From an uncultured Lachnospiraceae bacterium (GTDB lineage: Bacteria; Bacillota; Clostridia; Lachnospirales; Lachnospiraceae): a DNA stretch of 64,000 nt. Below, piece by piece: positions 55,723 to 63,624 of the stretch. The DNA lies in assembly GCA_947173495.1 (NCBI GenBank), contig CAMWFQ010000011.1, positions 62,001 to 126,000 on the forward strand, given 5' to 3'. A model generated the notes under the pieces. That model was not told where the DNA came from and ran no database searches. It saw only the letters and a list, made by a program, of their open reading frames with translations. Position 1 is the first letter of the stretch; each line of letters begins with the position of its first letter. The position numbers and the translations under genes were made by a program.

Positions 55723-55761
55723 GAAAAATACGGTCCAGGAACTGTGATAGGACGAACAGAG

Positions 55762-55800
55762 CCCGGCATAGATTGTAAAAACAACTATGCCGGGTATTTT
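55762..55800 (+). terminator. Terminator after fkp
   Basis: CCCGGCATA (55762-55770) pairs with TATGCCGGG (55786-55794), followed by TATTTT. It contains an ATG at 55787 that should not be taken as a gene start. Confidence 0.8.
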
Positions 55801-55804
55801 AATT

Positions 55805-56080
55805 ATGAAAAGAAAGCTGGAAATGCTCAGACAAAAGATAAGGATCTTTCCGCCTAGGACAAAAGATCAGAGCGGAGAGGAATATGCCAGAGAAAAACTG
55901 GTTTTGGGATTTAAATACGGAGTATTTGCACTGACAGCCTTTGCCATTCTGCGGGGAATCCTGCTGGTAGGAGGCGCCAGCGTGACGGTGAGCAGCAGCG
56001 TGGATGGACGGGAACTTCCTGTTTACTGTGTGGATACACCGGAGAAGAAGATTGCGCTCAGTTTTGATGCAGCGTGGGGG
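55805..56080 (+). pseudogene. PdaB-like polysaccharide deacetylase, 5' part (interrupted gene)
   Basis: 92 codons up to the recombination core. They encode a cytoplasmic basic start (MKRKLEMLRQKIRIF), a membrane helix (YGVFALTAFAILRGILLVGG), a short stalk, VYCVDTPEKKIALSFDAAWG, then the break. The last part is the first strand and metal Asp of the NodB deacetylase fold in its PdaB variant (FDAAWG). In the unrearranged DNA the frame runs on for 23 unrelated codons (to 56149). Joined to 63052-63624 it gives an intact 282-residue protein. PdaB-type enzymes act on spore peptidoglycan. The start codon is uncertain. Confidence 0.8.
56073..56080 (+). other. Left recombination core (attL side)
   Basis: CGTGGGGG, shared with 63044-63051. 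Outside the element the host gene lies to the left; the element arm GATACCTCCTTGATGG lies to the right, with TGATGG at 56091-56096 complementary to CCATCA in the other arm. Confidence 0.75.
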
Positions 56081-56232
56081 GATACCTCCTTGATGGAGAC
56101 CGGCGCGCCAAAACCCGGAATATCGGTTGTTCTGAAAAAAAACAAATAAATAGTGACAAAAGAATGATTTTGTTGCATAATTTGTAAGTAAAAGGTTTTT
56201 TTAGCCGAATGAGGTATCAGAACATTTGGAGG

Positions 56233-56303
56233 GCAAGGTGAACTTGTTCGCCTTGCAAATATTGTGCTGACACCCAAATTTGCAGGTGTTGGCAGCATGG
56301 GGG
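56233..56303 (+). ncRNA. Structured leader with CUUG tetraloop, copy 2 (upstream of the PRTase gene)
   Basis: Hairpin 1 is GCAAGGTGAA (56233-56242), CTTG, TTCGCCTTGC (56247-56256), with one G-U pair. Hairpin 2 is GCTG/ACACC (56266-56274) with GGTGT (56285-56289) and CAGC (56293-56296), TGG bulged, loop CAAATTTGCA, then ATGGGGG. Spacing between loops is identical to copy 1 at 294-360, while hairpin-1 stem bases differ and still pair. Confidence 0.6.
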
Positions 56304-56309
56304 ATTTAT

Positions 56310-56867
56310 ATGGAAGCTAAGTATTATGAAATGAATATCGCCGGATGTATCAGAAGGCTGCCCCGGGTGAGGATCACGGACAAGATGGAAATTGCCAGTT
56401 TTGTGCTTCTGGGAGATGCTGAACTGGTGATAAAGGCGGCGGATGCGTTGGTAAAACGACTTCCCAGGGTGGATTATCTGATCACGGCGGAGGCCAAGGG
56501 AATTCCTCTGGTACAGGAGATGGCACGTATTCTGGGAATGAAGCGTTACTTTGTGGCGAGAAAGAGCGTTAAACCCTACATGACCGATCCTTTTGTCACG
56601 GAGGTCTATTCTATCACCACGCAAAAGAAACAGATTCTGTGCCTGGATAAGGAAGAAAGCGACATGATCCGGGGGAAAAAGATTCTGATTGTAGACGATG
56701 TGATCAGCACGGGGGAATCTCTGAAGGCCATGGAGTCTCTGGTGGAAAAAGCCGGAGGAGAGCTGATGGGGAAAGCGGCTGTCCTGGCGGAAGGGGATGC
56801 GGCGAAGCGTAAAGACATCATTTATCTGGAGCCCCTGCCGGTATTTCCGGTGACCGTGTCCAGATAG
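56310..56867 (+). CDS. Phosphoribosyltransferase (adenine/xanthine PRTase-like)
   Basis: 185 residues from ATG 56310. The PRPP-binding loop is ILIVDDVISTGESLKAMESL near residue 130; the N-terminal part VDYLITAEAKGIPLVQEMAR matches the APRT/Xpt class, which uses T-A-E-A-K-G in the pyrophosphate loop. It would attach ribose phosphate to a purine-like base in the cytoplasm. It is the first gene of the element's operon, 21 bases before the ECF ATPase gene, so the base is probably the imported substrate or a product made from it. Exact base unknown. Confidence 0.85.
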   Translation: MEAKYYEMNIAGCIRRLPRVRITDKMEIASFVLLGDAELVIKAADALVKRLPRVDYLITAEAKGIPLVQEMARILGMKRYFVARKSVKPYMTDPFVTEVYSITTQKKQILCLDKEESDMIRGKKILIVDDVISTGESLKAMESLVEKAGGELMGKAAVLAEGDAAKRKDIIYLEPLPVFPVTVSR

Positions 56868-56888
56868 ATAAACCGGGAGAAATGCGAA

Positions 56889-58541
56889 GTGGATTATAAA
56901 GTAAATGATATCAGTTATAAATATGCGTCCGGCGGAAAAGAGGTTTTAAGGCACGTGAACTTTTCCATTGAGCAGGGGAAGGTTACGGCAATAGTGGGTC
57001 CCAGCGGCTGTGGAAAATCCACTCTGGTTCAGATTTTCAGCCAGGTGATTCCGAAGCTTCTGGCAAACGGAGAGCTTGCGGGCAGCTTTGACGTACCGGA
57101 TAAGACGCTAGTCAGCGTGGTCAGCCAGTCACCGGAGAACCAGCTGTTTGGATATGGAGTGGAGGACGCCATTGCCTTTGGCATGGAAAATATGGGACTG
57201 TCCCAGGAGGAGATCGCAGAGAGGATGGATTATGTCCTGGATCTGCTGAGTCTCCAGTATCTGAGAAGCAGAAGCGTGGCGACTCTTTCCGGCGGACAGC
57301 GTCAGGCGGTCTGTATCGCCTCTGTTCTTGCCATGGAACCGGATATCCTGATCATGGACGAGCCGGTCAGTTCCCTGGATCCCAATGGCAAGCGGATGGT
57401 ACAGAATATATTAAAACAGCTGAGGGCCAACGGCAACACGACGGTGCTGGTGGACAACAATCTGGTATGGTCGGCAGGAGTTGTGGATCATGTAATCGGC
57501 CTTCTGGATGGCGAGAAGGTGTTTGACGGCACCAGGGATGAATTTTTCAGAGACTTTGCCCTGCAGGAAAAGCTGGGAGTGATTATTCCTCAGGAGGTGG
57601 AGATTTACAGGCAGCTTTCTGCCCATATTCCGGAACTGGAGCTTTTCTACACGGTGGAAGAGGGAAAGAAGCAGTTGGAGAAACTGATCGGTAGAAAGGA
57701 GTCTGATATCGGAGGTCTGGAAGAAGAAAAGAAGGAGACTGTGGTCAGTGTGCATAATCTGAGCAAAACCTTCGAGGACGGCTTCCATGCCCTGACCGAT
57801 GTGAATGCCAATATAGCAGAGGGGAAGATTGTGGCGATTCTGGGGCAGAACGGCTCCGGAAAAACAACGTTTGTCAAGCATTTAAATGGTCTTTACAAGC
57901 CCACGGAGGGGGATGTACGTTATAGAGGGAGTTCTATCATCCATAAGACAGTAGCGCAGATTTCCAGAAACATTATTCTGGTGTTCCAGCACCCGGAACA
58001 CATGCTTTTTGAGGAAACCGTGGAGAAAGAGCTGAGCTTCTGTGCCCGCATGCAGCAGGTGCCTTTTACCCCGGAGCAGCTGGAGGAGGTTCTTAAGACT
58101 TATCATATGGAGGAGGACAGGGAAACGTTTCCGCTGAATCTGTCCATGGGCAAAAAGCATATGCTGACCATTCTTTCCGTTCTGTTTTCCAGTGCGGATG
58201 TCATCATTCTGGACGAGCCCACCCTGGGGATGGACGGATTCCTGATCCGGGAGCTGAAAGCGATGCTGGAAAAGCTTTCTGCGGAAGGAAAAACGGTGGT
58301 CATGATCAGTCATGAGATTCCGCTGGTGTTCCAGACGATGGATGAAGCGATTATCCTGAATCAGGGGAAAAAGATATTTGAGGGTTCCAGAGAAGCACTC
58401 GCCCGCAGGAGCGATATCTTCGAACATATCAACATTCAGCTCCCTGCAGTGGTACAGCTTTCCAGGGATCTGGGCTTTTCGAAAATCTGCTATAATGTAG
58501 AGGAATTTGCTGCTATGGTAATGGAAAGGCGAGGTGCATAA
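56889..58541 (+). CDS. ECF transporter ATPase, two ATP-binding domains fused (EcfA-EcfA')
   Basis: 550 residues holding two complete ABC domains. Domain 1: Walker A GPSGCGKST, signature LSGGQRQAVCIASVL, Walker B ILIMDEPVSSLD. Domain 2: Walker A GQNGSGKTT, a degenerate signature LSMGKKHMLTILSVL, Walker B VIILDEPTLGMD. The fused form is common in stand-alone (group I) ECF transporters with a dedicated S component. The second signature has M in place of the usual second Gly (LSMGK), so the two sites may be unequal. GTG start with GGGAG upstream. The next gene starts one base after the stop. Confidence 0.9.
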   Translation: MDYKVNDISYKYASGGKEVLRHVNFSIEQGKVTAIVGPSGCGKSTLVQIFSQVIPKLLANGELAGSFDVPDKTLVSVVSQSPENQLFGYGVEDAIAFGMENMGLSQEEIAERMDYVLDLLSLQYLRSRSVATLSGGQRQAVCIASVLAMEPDILIMDEPVSSLDPNGKRMVQNILKQLRANGNTTVLVDNNLVWSAGVVDHVIGLLDGEKVFDGTRDEFFRDFALQEKLGVIIPQEVEIYRQLSAHIPELELFYTVEEGKKQLEKLIGRKESDIGGLEEEKKETVVSVHNLSKTFEDGFHALTDVNANIAEGKIVAILGQNGSGKTTFVKHLNGLYKPTEGDVRYRGSSIIHKTVAQISRNIILVFQHPEHMLFEETVEKELSFCARMQQVPFTPEQLEEVLKTYHMEEDRETFPLNLSMGKKHMLTILSVLFSSADVIILDEPTLGMDGFLIRELKAMLEKLSAEGKTVVMISHEIPLVFQTMDEAIILNQGKKIFEGSREALARRSDIFEHINIQLPAVVQLSRDLGFSKICYNVEEFAAMVMERRGA

Positions 58542-58542
58542 G

Positions 58543-59367
58543 ATGGACTATTTACAGTATGTGGATACGGATTCGCTGCTTCACCGTCTGGATCCCAGAA
58601 CAAAGTTTGCTTTTTTCCTGGTGATGGCAGTCGTGACCAGCGTTATCAAGTCAGGGGTGGCGCTGCTTTTTCTGTTTGCCTTTTTTATCGCTTTGTGGTG
58701 TACATGCAGGATTCCCAAATATATTCTTATTCTGGCGGGAAAATTGAAGGTGCTTCTGGCGTTTATTTTTCTGCTGTGGCTGATTCTGGGGCTGTTTGAG
58801 CCTCCGGTGGTGGAGAAAGGTCCCATCTTCTTTCAGACAGTCCTTCCCTTTGTGAACGGACAGAGTATTCATCTGTGCTTTGACTGGTACGATTTGTACA
58901 AGGGAGCGGTGTATGCTCTTCGTATCTTCCTGATGATCTCTTCCTTTTATACGGTCATTCTGACCACCAACTTCAGTGAGATCATCCTGGGTCTGCAGAA
59001 GTGGAAAATTCCGTATGCCCTGGCTTTTGGCATAGGCCTGGTGTTTCAGATTATTCCCATGATCATTACGGAGCTGAAGGCGATTATGGAAGCCCAGAGC
59101 TCCAGAGGTCTGGAGATCGAAGAATGCGGCTGGGCCACCAAGATCAGGAATTATGTTACCTTTTCACTGCCTCTTTTGTTCCGCGTCATGAGCAAGGGAC
59201 AGGCCATTTCTCTGGCGATGCACTATTATCAGCTGGATTTCTCTGTCCGCCGCACCGCTTATAAGGGAATCAAGGCAACGGCCTACGATGCGTGGTTCAT
59301 TATTGCCAACGCGGTGACCATCGTGATCACCGTTATATTGCGTTTATACTTTTATATTCCTGTATAA
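58543..59367 (+). CDS. ECF transporter transmembrane protein EcfT
   Basis: 274 residues from ATG 58543. Five to six membrane helices are seen, and the coupling helices carry the ARS/ARG-like signatures of EcfT (AQSSRGLEIEE and the later RVMSKGQAISLAMH). The N-terminus DTDSLLHRLDPRTKFAFFLV is characteristic. It links the ATPases to the S component. The ATPase gene stops one base before it. Confidence 0.9.
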   Translation: MDYLQYVDTDSLLHRLDPRTKFAFFLVMAVVTSVIKSGVALLFLFAFFIALWCTCRIPKYILILAGKLKVLLAFIFLLWLILGLFEPPVVEKGPIFFQTVLPFVNGQSIHLCFDWYDLYKGAVYALRIFLMISSFYTVILTTNFSEIILGLQKWKIPYALAFGIGLVFQIIPMIITELKAIMEAQSSRGLEIEECGWATKIRNYVTFSLPLLFRVMSKGQAISLAMHYYQLDFSVRRTAYKGIKATAYDAWFIIANAVTIVITVILRLYFYIPV

Positions 59368-59374
59368 AAAAAGG

Positions 59375-59450
59375 TTCGTGTCAGCGCTGCATCCGCGAAC
59401 CGGCGGACCATAAGGGATCCTGTGATAAAGCAGCGCAGAAATGAGGGAAG
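59375..59450 (+). promoter_or_regulatory. Structured gap between EcfT and creatininase genes
   Basis: GGTTCG...CGAACC forms one hairpin whose loop carries GCGCTGC; that loop can also pair with GCAGCGC at about 59430-59437, just before the AGAAATGAGGGAAG ribosome-binding site. The two pairings compete or form a pseudoknot, so the stretch may tune translation of the creatininase gene. The 3' strand is shared with the aspS leader. Confidence 0.4.
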
Positions 59451-59455
59451 TATTT

Positions 59456-60235
59456 ATGATCAAAAAATGGGAAAACATGACAAGAGATGAAATCGCGGCG
59501 CTGGACAAGGACAAATCTATTGTTCTTCTGCCAACTTCCGCCACGGAGCAGCACGGCGCTCATCTGCCGGTGGGGACTGATGCCATTATTCTTTCCACAC
59601 TGGTGGACCGGATGGTGGAAAATTGTGTATTTGAGGAAGGCAATCTGATCTTTGCCCCGCAGCTGAATGTGGGAAAGAGCAATGAGCATATGGGGTTTGC
59701 AGGTACTATCACTTTTAAGAGCCAGACCTATTATTCTCTGCTCCATGATATCGCCGACGCCATCACGGCCAGCGGGTTCAAAAAGCTGGTGCTCTTTAAC
59801 AGCCATGGAGGAAATACGGATATGCTGAACCTGATCAGCCGCGATCTGCGGATTGATCTGGGGCTGGATGTGTTTGTATTTGACTGGTGGTTTACCCCCT
59901 TCTGGAACGATGGCCTGAAAGGGCTGCAGGAGTCAGGTAAATATGGCGTATTCCATGCCTGCGAGCTGGAAACCTCGCTGATGCTGGCGGCAAGGCCGGA
60001 AACCGTTCACATGGAGCTGGCCGTGGACGAGGAGCCGGCGGAGTGCTTCAGGGGCGATAAGTATGTAACGGTGTTTGGTCCCGTCAATGCGGGCTGGAAG
60101 ACGAAAGATGTGACACAAAGCGGCGTGATCGGCGCACCCACTTATGCCACAGCTGAAAAAGGTCAAAAGCTTTTTGACTATGCGTGCAAAAAGCTTATTG
60201 ATATATTACATGAGATAGTTGAAATCAACTATTGA
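59456..60235 (+). CDS. Creatininase-family amidohydrolase
   Basis: 259 residues from ATG 59456 (ribosome-binding site GAGGGAAG). Metal ligands of the family are present: Glu and His in SATEQHGAHLPVGTDA (plus its Asp), His in NSHGGNTDML and Glu in FHACELETSLML. The family opens cyclic amides (creatinine) or removes formyl groups from pyrimidine intermediates; some members act in cofactor maturation. Placed between transporter subunits, it probably processes the imported compound. The operon would then import a ring compound, open or deformylate it and recycle a base through the phosphoribosyltransferase; this is inference. Confidence 0.85.
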   Translation: MIKKWENMTRDEIAALDKDKSIVLLPTSATEQHGAHLPVGTDAIILSTLVDRMVENCVFEEGNLIFAPQLNVGKSNEHMGFAGTITFKSQTYYSLLHDIADAITASGFKKLVLFNSHGGNTDMLNLISRDLRIDLGLDVFVFDWWFTPFWNDGLKGLQESGKYGVFHACELETSLMLAARPETVHMELAVDEEPAECFRGDKYVTVFGPVNAGWKTKDVTQSGVIGAPTYATAEKGQKLFDYACKKLIDILHEIVEINY

Positions 60236-60282
60236 GAAACCATGCTTAAAGCCGCAGGAGCGGCAGAAATGAGGAGGAAGAG

Positions 60283-60849
60283 ATGAATAAGAAGTTTACC
60301 TTTGTCAACATTATTTTCTTTGTAGTGTTCGGTGTGCTTACGGGCGTGCTCTGGGCTTATCTGTGCCCGATTCCGCTGATTCCGGGTGCCGTTCACTTCA
60401 GGACATTTGCATTCATCATTGTGGTGATCGGCTATCTGTTCGGACCGGTAACAGGGTTCTTTTCCGGGTATATCGGAACCATTGTGTGGGCGCTGCTGTC
60501 CGGGAACTTCATTCCCCTGCATTCTCCCCTGACGGATGGCATCAGCGTAGGGCTTTCAGCGGCTCTGCCGGCATTGATCCATTTGGGGAATGGCAAAAAG
60601 GATCTGCTGGAGTTGATTGAAAATAAGGGTAAATTCATTGGCGTCAGTTTATTCTGGAGTGTTCTGTTTGGCATCCTGATGATCCTGACCACCAGTATTT
60701 CCCTTTCCTACTTCACCGGGCTGGAGTACAGCTACTGTGTGATCTGGATCGGCATTGCGGATGTGGTGCCTATTGCGCTGACACCCTTCGTGGTGCTTCT
60801 GCTGGCAAAGAGGATGAAGAACATCAGAAACATTGTGCCTTATATCTAA
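60283..60849 (+). CDS. ECF transporter substrate-binding S component
   Basis: 188 residues with six membrane helices, the S-component size. The start FVNIIFFVVFGVLTGVLWAY, the loop FGPVTGFFSGYIGTIVWALL and SPLTDGISVGLSAALPALIH resemble the QueT/ThiT-like ECF-S fold. It determines what the transporter imports. The specificity cannot be named from sequence; neighbours suggest a nucleobase, lactam or ring compound. AGGAGGAAG lies before ATG 60283. A terminator follows. Confidence 0.8.
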   Translation: MNKKFTFVNIIFFVVFGVLTGVLWAYLCPIPLIPGAVHFRTFAFIIVVIGYLFGPVTGFFSGYIGTIVWALLSGNFIPLHSPLTDGISVGLSAALPALIHLGNGKKDLLELIENKGKFIGVSLFWSVLFGILMILTTSISLSYFTGLEYSYCVIWIGIADVVPIALTPFVVLLLAKRMKNIRNIVPYI

Positions 60850-60876
60850 GCTGGCTTTGAAAATCAGGTAAAAAAG

Positions 60877-60915
60877 AAGATACTTTCTGACAGAGGTTGG
60901 GAGGTATCTTTTTTT
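60877..60915 (+). terminator. Terminator of the ECF operon
   Basis: AAGATAC (60877-60883) pairs with GTATCTT (60904-60910), then TTTTT. The next repeat array begins directly after the T-run. Confidence 0.75.
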
Positions 60916-60917
60916 AT

Positions 60918-61003
60918 GCGCAGGCCCGCATAAGGAAATTTGCTGCTAACGCAGCATGCGGGCCGCGCGCGAGTAGGGGAAGATAAACCTTCCCTACTCG
61001 ATT
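60918..61003 (+). repeat. Multi-hairpin repeat family, copy C
   Basis: Outer stem GGCCCGCA/TGCGGGCC (perfect), conserved TAAGGAAATT, inner hairpin TGCTGC-TAAC-GCAGCA (perfect), terminal hairpin GAGTAGGGGAAG/CTTCCCTACTC, ending GATT. Preceded by TTTTTTTATGCGCAGG, as copy A. Confidence 0.8.
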
Positions 61004-61092
61004 GCGCACGGATACCCAGAGGAAAAATGTCAGCAAAAGCTGACGGGTGCCCGGTGCGCGAGTAGGGGGAGATAGCTCTTCCCTGCTCGATT
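61004..61092 (+). repeat. Multi-hairpin repeat family, copy D
   Basis: Outer stem CGGATACCC/GGGTGCCCG (one mismatch, one wobble), conserved AGAGGAAAAA, inner hairpin GTCAGC-AAAA-GCTGAC (perfect), terminal hairpin GAGTAGGG/CCCTGCTC, ending GATT. Confidence 0.8.
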
Positions 61093-61150
61093 GCGCAGGC
61101 CCACAAAAGGAAGTTTGCCGCTGAAGCGGCGTGTGGGCCCTGCGCGCAGG
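61093..61150 (+). repeat. Multi-hairpin repeat family, copy E (lacks the last hairpin)
   Basis: Outer stem GGCCCACA/TGTGGGCC (perfect), conserved AAAAGGAAGTTT, inner hairpin GCCGC-TGAA-GCGGC (perfect). The terminal GAGTAGGG hairpin is missing, so the array ends here. Confidence 0.8.
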
Positions 61151-61240
61151 GGTGTAGGAGAGGTTATTTCGCACCATGTATTCTGCATATATATAGTAAA
61201 AATCTGATCTGCAGTATGAGTCAGGCAGAAAGGATGGGAT

Positions 61241-61399
61241 ATGTCAGAAAGAAAGACACAGTATACCGTTATCAGGGAATATGAGAATCGTTATGGGCAG
61301 GAAGAATTGCTCCGGCGTCTGATCCGCCTTCATATCCGGAAAGAGTATGCGGAGAGCGGCAGGAACCTGAATGGCGAGGTAAAGGAAGATGCGAAATAA
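61241..61399 (+). CDS. 52-residue protein coupled to the serine recombinase
   Basis: ATG 61241 to TAA 61397-61399. The product is strongly charged and helical: ENRYGQEELLRRLIRLHIRK in the middle and a Lys/Glu-rich tail. Its last 11 bases overlap the recombinase start, so the two are translated together. I do not recognise the family. Its size, charge and place next to a large serine recombinase would fit a recombination directionality factor, which is inference only. Confidence 0.6.
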   Translation: MSERKTQYTVIREYENRYGQEELLRRLIRLHIRKEYAESGRNLNGEVKEDAK

Positions 61400-62975
61400 T
61401 GCAGTGGTCGGCAGGGACAGGGATAAAGAAAGCGCTCGGCTGAGTACAGCACTGTACATCCGGCTCTCGAGGGAAGATGAGGAGGGGGTGGAAAGCCTCA
61501 GTGTGTCCGGCCAGCGTTTGTTACTGACGGAATTTATAAACGGACGGGGGGATCTGCGTCTGTATGATACGTACATAGATGATGGCTATACGGGGACAAA
61601 TGTCAACCGGCCCGGTTTTCAGAGAATGCTCCGGGACATTGAAGACAAAAGGGTACAGTGCGTGGTCGTTAAGGATCTGTCCAGACTGGGCAGAAATATG
61701 CCGGAGGTTTCCAGATATATAAATGAGTATTTTCCTGAAAAAAGAGTCCGTTTCATAGCCGTAAATGATGAGGTGGATAAAGGTTATTCTGATATGGATA
61801 CCGATGCGGACCTGATGATCGACTTCAAGAATCTGTTCAACGGATTTTATCCGAGAGATATCTCCAAAAAGGTTCGCTCCACCTTCAGAAGTAAGCAAAA
61901 CAGCGGACAGTTTATCGGCGCTTTTGCAGGTTTTGGCTATGTCAAGTCGCCGGAGAATCACAATAAACTGGAAATTGACGAGTACGCAGCCGCTATTGTA
62001 AGGCGTATTTTTGACATGTATATCGGGGGAACGGGACAGAACACGATTGCAAAAATATTGAATGAGGAGAAGGTGCCGTGTCCTTCGGAGTACAAGAGGC
62101 AGTGTGGGCTGAAGTATCGCAACGGCAATCGTCTCGGCACTACCTCTTATTGGACATACGCTGCCATAAGAAATATTTTAAGAAACGAATACTATATCGG
62201 CAATACGGTACAAAACAAGAGCTTCAGACAGATGGGTAAAAAAAAGGCGGTGAATCTGCCGAGGGAAAACTGGATCATTGTAGAGAATACCCATGAGCCA
62301 ATTATTGACAGGGATACCTGGAATAAGGTGCAGCATCTGTTGGAATGTAATACCAGGCAGACCAATTTTACAGAAAATATTCATCTGTTTGCAGGCTGTC
62401 TGAGATGCGGAGACTGTGGCCGGGCCATGGTCAAAATCAGGCGCCGGGATGCAAACGTCTTTAACTGCGGCAGCTATAACCGGTATGGAAAGAAAATCTG
62501 TACCAGTCACAGCATTACGGAGAGGGAACTGGAAGAAATCGTGTTACATGACCTGAACCGGATCATCAGCGCTGCAGAGAATAGGGATCGTCTGATCGAA
62601 GAGGAGACAAAAAAGGCTAAAAAGGACAGTACAGATTTAAGAGAGAATATGCCTGCCCTTCAGGCAGAGATTAACCGCCTGATACAAAAGAAGGAATCTG
62701 CCTACGAGGATTATTCAGATGGCCTTATCACAAAGGAGGAATATATAAAATACAGGGATAAGTATGAACAGAAGATTGCGGTTCTCCGACTGAAAATGGA
62801 TAAGTCAGACCGGACCGGAAGCAGGCTTTTTGCAGAAAATCAATGGATGAAAGATCTGCGGCAGGGAAAGCTGCATCATCTTGACAGAGAAACCGTGGTT
62901 GAAATGGTATCTACGATCTACATTTATGAAGACCATACCGTGAAAATGGTCTATTATTTTTCAGACACGATGTGA
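61389..62975 (+). CDS. Large serine recombinase (TnpX/SpoIVCA-like)
   Basis: 528 residues. Catalytic Ser in ALYIRLSREDE, the resolvase core DDGYTGTNVNRPGFQRML and VVVKDLSRLGRN, then the recombinase domain (GAFAGFGYVKSP, RRIFDMYIGGTGQNTIAKIL, NILRNEYYIGN), a zinc ribbon (CLRCGDCGRAM...FNCGSY...CTSH) and a helical C-terminus with coiled-coil character. Such enzymes integrate and, with a directionality factor, excise DNA between short att sites. The gene ends 68 bases before the right core, where an element's own integrase is expected. It is the candidate for rejoining the deacetylase gene. Confidence 0.93.
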   Translation: MRNNAVVGRDRDKESARLSTALYIRLSREDEEGVESLSVSGQRLLLTEFINGRGDLRLYDTYIDDGYTGTNVNRPGFQRMLRDIEDKRVQCVVVKDLSRLGRNMPEVSRYINEYFPEKRVRFIAVNDEVDKGYSDMDTDADLMIDFKNLFNGFYPRDISKKVRSTFRSKQNSGQFIGAFAGFGYVKSPENHNKLEIDEYAAAIVRRIFDMYIGGTGQNTIAKILNEEKVPCPSEYKRQCGLKYRNGNRLGTTSYWTYAAIRNILRNEYYIGNTVQNKSFRQMGKKKAVNLPRENWIIVENTHEPIIDRDTWNKVQHLLECNTRQTNFTENIHLFAGCLRCGDCGRAMVKIRRRDANVFNCGSYNRYGKKICTSHSITERELEEIVLHDLNRIISAAENRDRLIEEETKKAKKDSTDLRENMPALQAEINRLIQKKESAYEDYSDGLITKEEYIKYRDKYEQKIAVLRLKMDKSDRTGSRLFAENQWMKDLRQGKLHHLDRETVVEMVSTIYIYEDHTVKMVYYFSDTM

Positions 62976-63043
62976 GCAGATAAACGAATTGCCTGCCTGT
63001 CGTATTTTACAGGCGGTGCCTGCTTCCATCAGGATACAATTCC

Positions 63044-63051
63044 CGTGGGGG
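63044..63051 (+). other. Right recombination core (attR side)
   Basis: CGTGGGGG, identical to 56073-56080. The element arm on the left contains CCATCA at 63026-63031, complementary to TGATGG in the left-end arm. The circular attP would be CCATCA, 12 bases, core, 10 bases, TGATGG. Confidence 0.75.
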
Positions 63052-63624
63052 AATGAAGATACTTCTAAAATTCTGGAGATTTTGAAAAAACATGACGTGC
63101 ATGTCACTTTTTTTATGACGGGGGGATGGGTGGAAAGCTACCCGGACGATGTAAAGGCGATCCTGGCAGCAGGCCATGATCTGGGCAATCACAGTGAAAA
63201 CCACAAAAATATGAGCCAGCTCTCTGACAGCGAGAAAAAGGAGGAGCTGATGAAGGTACATACCAAAGTGCAGGAGCTGACCGGCTATGAGATGTTCCTG
63301 TTCAGGCCGCCCTACGGAGACTATGACAACGCGGTGGTGAATGTGGCCAGGGACTGCGGATACTATACCATCCAGTGGGATGTGGATTCTCTTGACTGGA
63401 AGGATTACGGTGTGGACTCCATCATCAAAACGGTAACTCAGCACAAACATCTTGGGAACGGAAGTATTATTCTCTGCCACAACGGAGCAAAATACACGGC
63501 CCAGGCTCTGGATACCCTGATTGCCACGCTGAAAAATGAGGGGTATACTTTTGTCCCGATTTCAGAATTGATTTACAGGGAGAAGTACCATATGGATCAC
63601 GAAGGACGGCAGATAAAAAATTAG
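63052..63624 (+). pseudogene. PdaB-like polysaccharide deacetylase, 3' part (interrupted gene)
   Basis: 190 codons beginning NEDTSKILEILKKHDVHVTF. The remaining NodB motifs are intact: the metal His pair in HDLGNHSENHKN, the arginine motif LFRPPYGDYD, WDVDSLDWKD and the catalytic His in IILCHNGAKYT. The 5' side has no ribosome-binding site or proper start; an open frame runs back to 62989 only because no stop occurs. This piece is therefore silent unless the element is excised. The motifs show no decay, as expected if the joined gene is still used. Confidence 0.85.

Follow-up and report, generated by a model that had tools for sequence, protein, structure and literature searches.

Candidate skin-like elements split the sporulation gene pdaB at five sites in the gut genus Parablautia

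We analysed a stretch of 64,000 nucleotides (the window) from contig CAMWFQ010000011.1 of an uncultured bacterium of the genus Parablautia (Lachnospiraceae), whose members are mouse-gut bacteria. Near the end of the window, a spore gene of the PdaB type (pdaB, or spoVIE) is split in frame into two parts, at 55805-56080 and 63052-63624 of the forward strand, by an intervening element of 6,971 bp. Judging from sequence comparisons, this and related elements are probably skin-like, i.e. excised from pdaB in a programmed manner during sporulation; we put the probability of this reading at roughly 0.8. An initial annotation of the window had considered this one element. Comparison across the genus indicates that pdaB is a recurrent target with five sites.

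Results

The split gene and its element

The 5' piece of pdaB starts with an ATG at 55805 and breaks after GCG TGG GGG (AWG, the end of SFDAAWG) at 56080. The 3' piece starts with AAT GAA GAT ACT (NEDT, the beginning of NEDTSKIL) at 63052 and its stop codon ends at 63624. Each junction contains one copy of an 8-bp core, CGTGGGGG (attL core at 56073-56080, attR core at 63044-63051), and the two copies are in identical codon phase. The cores are surrounded by inverted repeats, the arms TGATGGA (56091-56097) and TCCATCA (63025-63031), the former of which is also found in the genomes G028, G029 and G005. The initial annotation had described a PdaB-like gene split in frame by an element of about 7 kb with a shared core in the same phase, and had predicted that a core-to-core deletion would give an uninterrupted gene of 282 codons. 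Coordinates and core agreed when re-read, and joining the flanks at the core by script produced 846 nt, i.e. 282 codons, with zero stops. The 3' half matches the NCBIfam PdaB model (TIGR02764) with 2.7e-58 and 196.9 bits, short of the model cut-off of 237.4. This match begins at profile position 19, hence the first motif is missing from the 3' half.

A large serine recombinase of 528 amino acids (61389-62975, forward strand), with resolvase, recombinase and zinc-ribbon domains, is encoded next to the right core. The window thus shows two features of skin-like systems: a sporulation gene split in frame between short direct repeats and a serine recombinase gene beside a junction.

Five break sites in one gene

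We searched the whole gene of locus L011 (285 amino acids, genome G003) against 37 Parablautia genomes, including that of the window (G000). The gene was whole in 14 genomes, split with all parts found in 20, and partial in G018; it was not found in G014 and G036. Whole genes with the junction AWGNEDT, which had been proposed as a check in relatives, do exist, and the junction was read directly in one of them. The breaks fall at five places, numbered along L011: W94-G95 (site 1), W121-V122 (site 2), A135-G136 (site 3), D207 (site 4) and G240-A241 (site 5). All five lie within strongly conserved stretches of the protein, and we take most of them to coincide with NodB motifs. The short core and the inverted arms are specific to each site and recur across species. 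There are six element types over the five sites, each site having its own recombinase clade or clades. Three genomes carry two elements in one pdaB: G030 at sites 1 and 2, G027 at sites 2 and 3 (with about 16 codons of pdaB between them), and G017 at sites 1 and 4.

We then joined the parts by script at their cores. The frame was kept, with full length and no stop, in all 20 split genes (the 5' part of G017 was covered only from residue 26); the partial gene of G018 and the two genomes where the gene was not found were left out. Given this result, the in-frame rejoining of the gene in the window is not due to chance. Where the parts lie on the same contig, the gap between them ranges from about 2.3 kb (the site-2 element of G027) to 84 kb (G005). 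Close relatives also provide empty sites. The pair G021/G023, where the gene of G023 is whole, is 99.2% identical over 5.4 kb of the 5' flank and only 94.5% in the 3' half; the pair G019/G035 is 99.0% identical over 6.1 kb of the 3' flank.

A second PdaB with at least 70% identity is absent in 15 of the 20 split genomes. A whole paralog of PdaB, whose identity is 72-80% between about residue 60 and the C-terminus, occurs in G003, G008, G009, G013, G019, G021, G023, G028, G029, G034, G035 and G036; it was not found in the genome of the window. This genome has a second pdaB 3' tail (residues ~234-274, 93% identical) at G000:C11:126573-126695 (L184:1573-1695), 0.95 kb past the gene. Comparable tails occur downstream of the gene in L106, L120, L130 and L055, several of them beginning at site 4, and they are probably traces of earlier elements. 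In locus L072 (G035), pdaB is present as a tandem pair spaced by about 1.2 kb, and the second copy contains one stop; this may be an assembly effect. Locus L182 (G018) has a PdaB piece that ends near residue 183, adjacent to a further serine recombinase; it may represent a sixth site or else a paralog that is split.

Controls and distribution beyond the genus

We considered and rejected the idea that the splits are assembly artefacts. All parts are on one contig in 13 of the 20 split genes, and the hosts of split genes include the strains P. muri D42-62, P. intestinalis D8-82 and 1xD8-48. We used two sporulation genes as controls. The longer gene spoIVA is in a single frame in 36 of the 37 genomes; in the remaining one, which is 59% complete, the match starts 5 bases from the contig end. 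Among the matches listed, the best one to sigma-K is in a single frame in 34 of the 37 genomes (none above the model cut-off) and is missing in G016, G031 and G035; G011 has an extra partial one. The genome of the window encodes both spoIVA, above its cut-off, and a sigma-K-like gene. To the extent that two control genes can tell, the splitting of pdaB is explained neither by assembly damage nor by a general splitting of sporulation genes.

The phenomenon extends beyond Parablautia. We screened one genome from each genus of the family, 160 in all. A match with an E-value of 2.4e-60 or lower was obtained in 66 of them (that of the window included), and in six of the other 65 its extent suggests a split gene. 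Four of these six (G181, G103, G052 and G100) carry both parts together with a matching recombinase, and have cores and arms at site 1. In G131 the 3' half and a recombinase are present; in G198 the contig carries no recombinase. G156, outside these six, gives a weaker partial match. Five of 80 named loci (L125, L130, L132, L137 and L156), on contigs differing in length from the pdaB contigs of the 37 genomes, show both halves, a site-1 recombinase and the same kind of site-1 junction, a count that leaves out L111, L131 and L141 and comes from a set that may overlap with the genome set. L148 and L157 have the 3' half of pdaB near a recombinase. Outside the family but within the order, the gene of G082 and that of G075 are interrupted at site 4, with a site-4-type recombinase, 35% identical to that of G004. 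Rejoining covered the 20 genes of the genus.

Split genes under purifying selection

We estimated the ratio of nonsynonymous (dN) to synonymous (dS) substitution rates between pairs of pdaB genes. Over the whole gene, 40 of 561 pairs had a dS between 0.05 and 1.5; the 521 outside this range were dropped, and the second copy of G035 (with one stop) was excluded. The whole-gene dN/dS was 0.044 between split genes (9 pairs), 0.031 between split and whole genes (20 pairs) and 0.041 between whole genes (11 pairs). After site 1 the corresponding values were 0.019 (7 pairs), 0.017 (18) and 0.016 (9), and before site 1 they were 0.127 (33), 0.122 (48) and 0.162 (22). Hence, dN/dS is the same in split genes as in whole genes, and in both the part before site 1 is less constrained than the part after it (medians 0.12-0.16 vs 0.016-0.019).

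One pair of species informs on the age of an insertion. P. intestinalis and P. muri have the same kind of element, of type 1a, at site 1, with largely the same cargo. Their 11 shared element genes have a dS of 0.68-1.94 (median 1.00), to be compared with 0.854 for spoIVA and 1.008 for pdaB (dN 0.044, dN/dS 0.044). Since the element is about as divergent as its hosts, its insertion into the gene most likely predates the separation of the species. The low dN/dS of pdaB since then implies that the gene is not dead and evolved under purifying selection while split. A further feature of skin-like systems, a split gene kept by selection, is thereby documented for the genus and for one species pair, not separately for the lineage of the window.

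These results bear on two other explanations. One could suppose that the insertion permanently inactivates pdaB, as the gene in its present state is incapable of encoding the full protein. This is very improbable given that all 20 split genes have kept their frame without stops and have the dN/dS of whole genes. The initial annotation had also preferred excision to inactivation. As far as sequences can tell, purifying selection on split genes, exact junctions, conserved arms and site-specific recombinase clades strongly favour excision. The other explanation is that the fragments are made separately and cooperate, or are joined at the RNA or protein level, which could account for the constraint on both halves. 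We give it even less credence, because the splits occur inside conserved stretches at five places and leave, in G027, a piece of some 16 codons between two elements. Joining of RNA also conflicts with the absence of matches to RNA families, including introns (Rfam, E up to 1), between 55000 and 64000 of the window.

Promoters of pdaB and of the recombinases

In each of the 22 genomes that we scanned, a pair of boxes, NNATRNN-N15-CATANNNN, lies upstream of pdaB, at a distance of 28 to 143 bp from its start. As AT(A/G) and CATA were demanded by the scan, the count informs on position and spacing; conservation is shown by the upstream alignment. The first box is ACATATG or GCATATG in 14 of the 22 genomes and the second is CATAAACT in 13. 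These boxes resemble what we take to be the sigma-E consensus. The pair in the window, TGATAGG-N15-CATAGATT (55745-55774, forward strand), is weak, with position and spacing as in relatives. We tried a matrix built from the pdaB promoters, with which only one of 13 spoIVA control regions outscored each of its 40 shuffles. It was therefore too specific and we used the sigma-E consensus instead. The latter gave a site with 13-14 of 15 positions in 13 of 13 spoIVA upstream regions, equalled by 0-8 of 200 shuffles.

For the recombinases, the picture is less clear. Site 1 has two sister clades of recombinases, 1a and 1b, and in 9 of 15 upstream regions of the latter we found a GCATA-type -35 separated by N15 from a -10-like box, similar to the pair upstream of pdaB (0 to 83 of 200 shuffles equal). 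By this consensus, no consistent sporulation promoter was found upstream of the recombinases of sites 1a, 2, 3, 4 and 5. A CATATATA box upstream of the recombinase recurs in G000, G028 and G029.

Recombinases, accompanying proteins and cargo

The phylogenetic tree of 43 recombinases (40 from elements and 3 viral) has eight site/recombinase groups, each monophyletic with a support of 0.988-1.0. The recombinase of the window is in clade 1a. Site-3 elements encode three serine recombinases in a row (G013, G007, G025; L051, L053, L054). The recombinase of L137, with just 35 amino acids in frame in the tree, is perhaps broken or misassembled. A small protein with the motif Y-T-I/V-x-R-E-Y/F, by which it was picked, precedes 14 of 18 site-1 recombinases, of both clades, and may be a directionality factor. 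Its counterpart in the window, a candidate recombination directionality factor of 52 amino acids (61241-61399, forward strand), overlaps the recombinase start and has no family in PHROGs or in Pfam, its single match in the latter (E 0.15) being at chance level.

The metabolic operon that had been noted inside the element, together with the recombinase at its right core, agrees with domain and profile matches. All on the forward strand, profiles identified a phosphoribosyltransferase of the PRK07322 subfamily (56310-56867), a fused double energy-coupling factor (ECF) transporter ATPase (56889-58541), an ECF transporter T component (58534-59367) and a creatininase-family amidohydrolase (59456-60235). 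A probable ECF transporter S component (60283-60849) has a weak Pfam match, under the cut-off. We rejected a prophage origin for this element: against PHROGs, its seven proteins matched an integrase family (the recombinase) and ATP-binding cassette transporter families, with no convincing structural phage gene. The nearest recombinases in viral contigs are at most 37% identical to that of the window, in a search that detects close relatives only, and no PdaB relative was found in these contigs. There is no tRNA in the window.

Site-5 elements are different, with endolysins in G019 and G020 and a CI-like repressor in G020, and are thus prophage-like. The cargo of L054 resembles, by eye, a sugar operon, perhaps for sialic acid. 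The site-1 elements of L041 and L050 (G011 and G017) span about 3.4 kb, and the long frames compared are the recombinase and a 466-residue protein, 83% identical between the two.

Discussion

We propose the following sequence of events. In growing cells, the split would keep pdaB silent. Upon sporulation, the serine recombinase of the element would recombine both cores in the mother cell, probably with the help of the small protein whose gene immediately precedes its own. The element would leave as a circle and pdaB would be rejoined in frame, allowing the deacetylase to be made. The spore would inherit the split form, since the mother cell dies. Several observations support programmed excision: exact in-frame junctions, cores with arms, an intact recombinase frame, empty sites, purifying selection, old co-inheritance (in one species pair) and a sigma-E-like promoter of pdaB in the genus.

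Other observations weigh against it. The parts are on separate contigs in 7 of the 20 split genes. In G021 (L042, strain 1xD8-48), the halves of pdaB are mutually inverted around a site-1b recombinase, so that a deletion cannot restore the gene, and an inversion would. We found no sister of the genome of the window with the same insert, and long co-inheritance is thus known for P. muri and P. intestinalis alone. Elsewhere, dS values conflict between pdaB and spoIVA (0.37 vs 2.49 in G024/G033, 0.60 vs 0.12 in G002/G022), which suggests that the pdaB locus may move between species at times; the spoIVA figures of G006/G016 are an artefact of unequal lengths. In G011/G017, dS is 1.0-1.6 for the element genes, 1.2 for spoIVA and 2.3-2.4 for pdaB. 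As for promoters, the conserved site of pdaB is the top-scoring one in four of six regions (1 to 44 of 200 shuffles equal), G000 and G025 being the exceptions, and the region upstream of the recombinase in the window has no clear sigma-E promoter (10 of 15 positions, equalled by 175 of 200 shuffles). Finally, an exact-match search of viral contigs, a poor place to look, gave no match to the circle junction of the element.

We also considered that pdaB may simply serve mobile elements as an attachment site, from which they excise occasionally in any cell, with the restored gene common enough for selection to act and no developmental programme. The turnover of the elements is high, as expected under such a scenario: the six element types require 22 Fitch changes on the spoIVA tree of 34 genomes, sister species differ, and G016 and G022, which are far apart on this tree, have site-1b recombinases that are 93% identical. 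The phage-type genes of the site-5 elements and the lack of a consistent sporulation promoter before most groups of recombinases point in the same direction. We nevertheless regard unprogrammed excision as unlikely. It fits poorly with an element kept in P. muri and P. intestinalis through a dS of about 1 and a pdaB dN/dS of 0.044, and with the pdaB-like pairs of boxes before 9 of 15 site-1b recombinases. Furthermore, the known cases named in the literature, as far as covered by the available text, concern mother-cell genes, and pdaB of Bacillus subtilis is such a gene. The latter (ybaN, spoVIE) belongs to the mother-cell sigma-E regulon according to the accessible parts of two sources (screen table of PMC4703394; PMC3416734), and the DNA upstream of it binds SpoIIID according to those of a third (PMC517825).

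A broader proposal is also rather plausible. In Lachnospirales, pdaB may be a general docking gene for integrative elements, to whose conserved stretches six or more recombinase lineages would have adapted independently. Doubly split genes would then act like genes with two DNA introns, both spliced out at each sporulation. The reason for docking there would be that the gene is needed only in the dying mother cell, where an element sits free of cost and is protected by selection for precise excision. One genus with five sites, six element types, doubly split genes and sister species with a whole gene makes testable what single cases could not: the origin of the elements, whether they parasitise the host or serve it as tools, their rate of turnover and the order of two excisions in one gene. 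It also carries a warning, since the annotation of gut spore formers will call such genes broken though they are probably functional.

Comparison with known systems

The sporulation rearrangements named in the literature, as far as its available text goes, are single insertions in sigK, spsM, spoVFB, spoVR, gerE and yabG. We did not find pdaB or spoVIE as a target of excision in the literature searched (subscription papers and preprints were outside its scope), and the accessible part of PMC12700454 names neither. The comparisons below draw on the available portions of the papers cited. The skin elements in sigK of B. subtilis and Clostridioides difficile (PMC4191935, PMC10747680, PMC5025042) share with the element studied here a serine recombinase, an in-frame join and, probably, a mother-cell gene as target. 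That of C. difficile has a directionality factor, for which ours encodes a candidate. Our target is pdaB, and no phage structural genes were recognised in the element of the window. It is not skin in the strict sense of an insertion in sigK, as the sigma-K match is unsplit in 34 of 37 genomes among the matches listed. SPβ in spsM and yin in yabG (PMC4191935, PMC10747680) resemble the site-5 elements of G019 and G020 in bearing phage-type genes inside the target, and differ in target gene, host group and element content. The element gin in gerE of Bacillus cereus (PMC5595907) is likewise a non-prophage with cargo genes, serine recombinases and a short core that splits a sporulation gene, one of the mother cell in gin and probably so here. 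It has three recombinases, as have the site-3 elements here, whereas the element of the window has one. It also differs by its target, gerE, and by its host, from another bacterial class. Moreover, a single gene here accommodates six element types at five sites, and in some genomes two elements simultaneously. By analogy, the element of the window would work like skin, and its nearest known case appears to be gin. Elements of this kind have precedents; within the literature searched, novelty lies in the target gene, in how many sites and element types there are, and in the genes that are doubly split.

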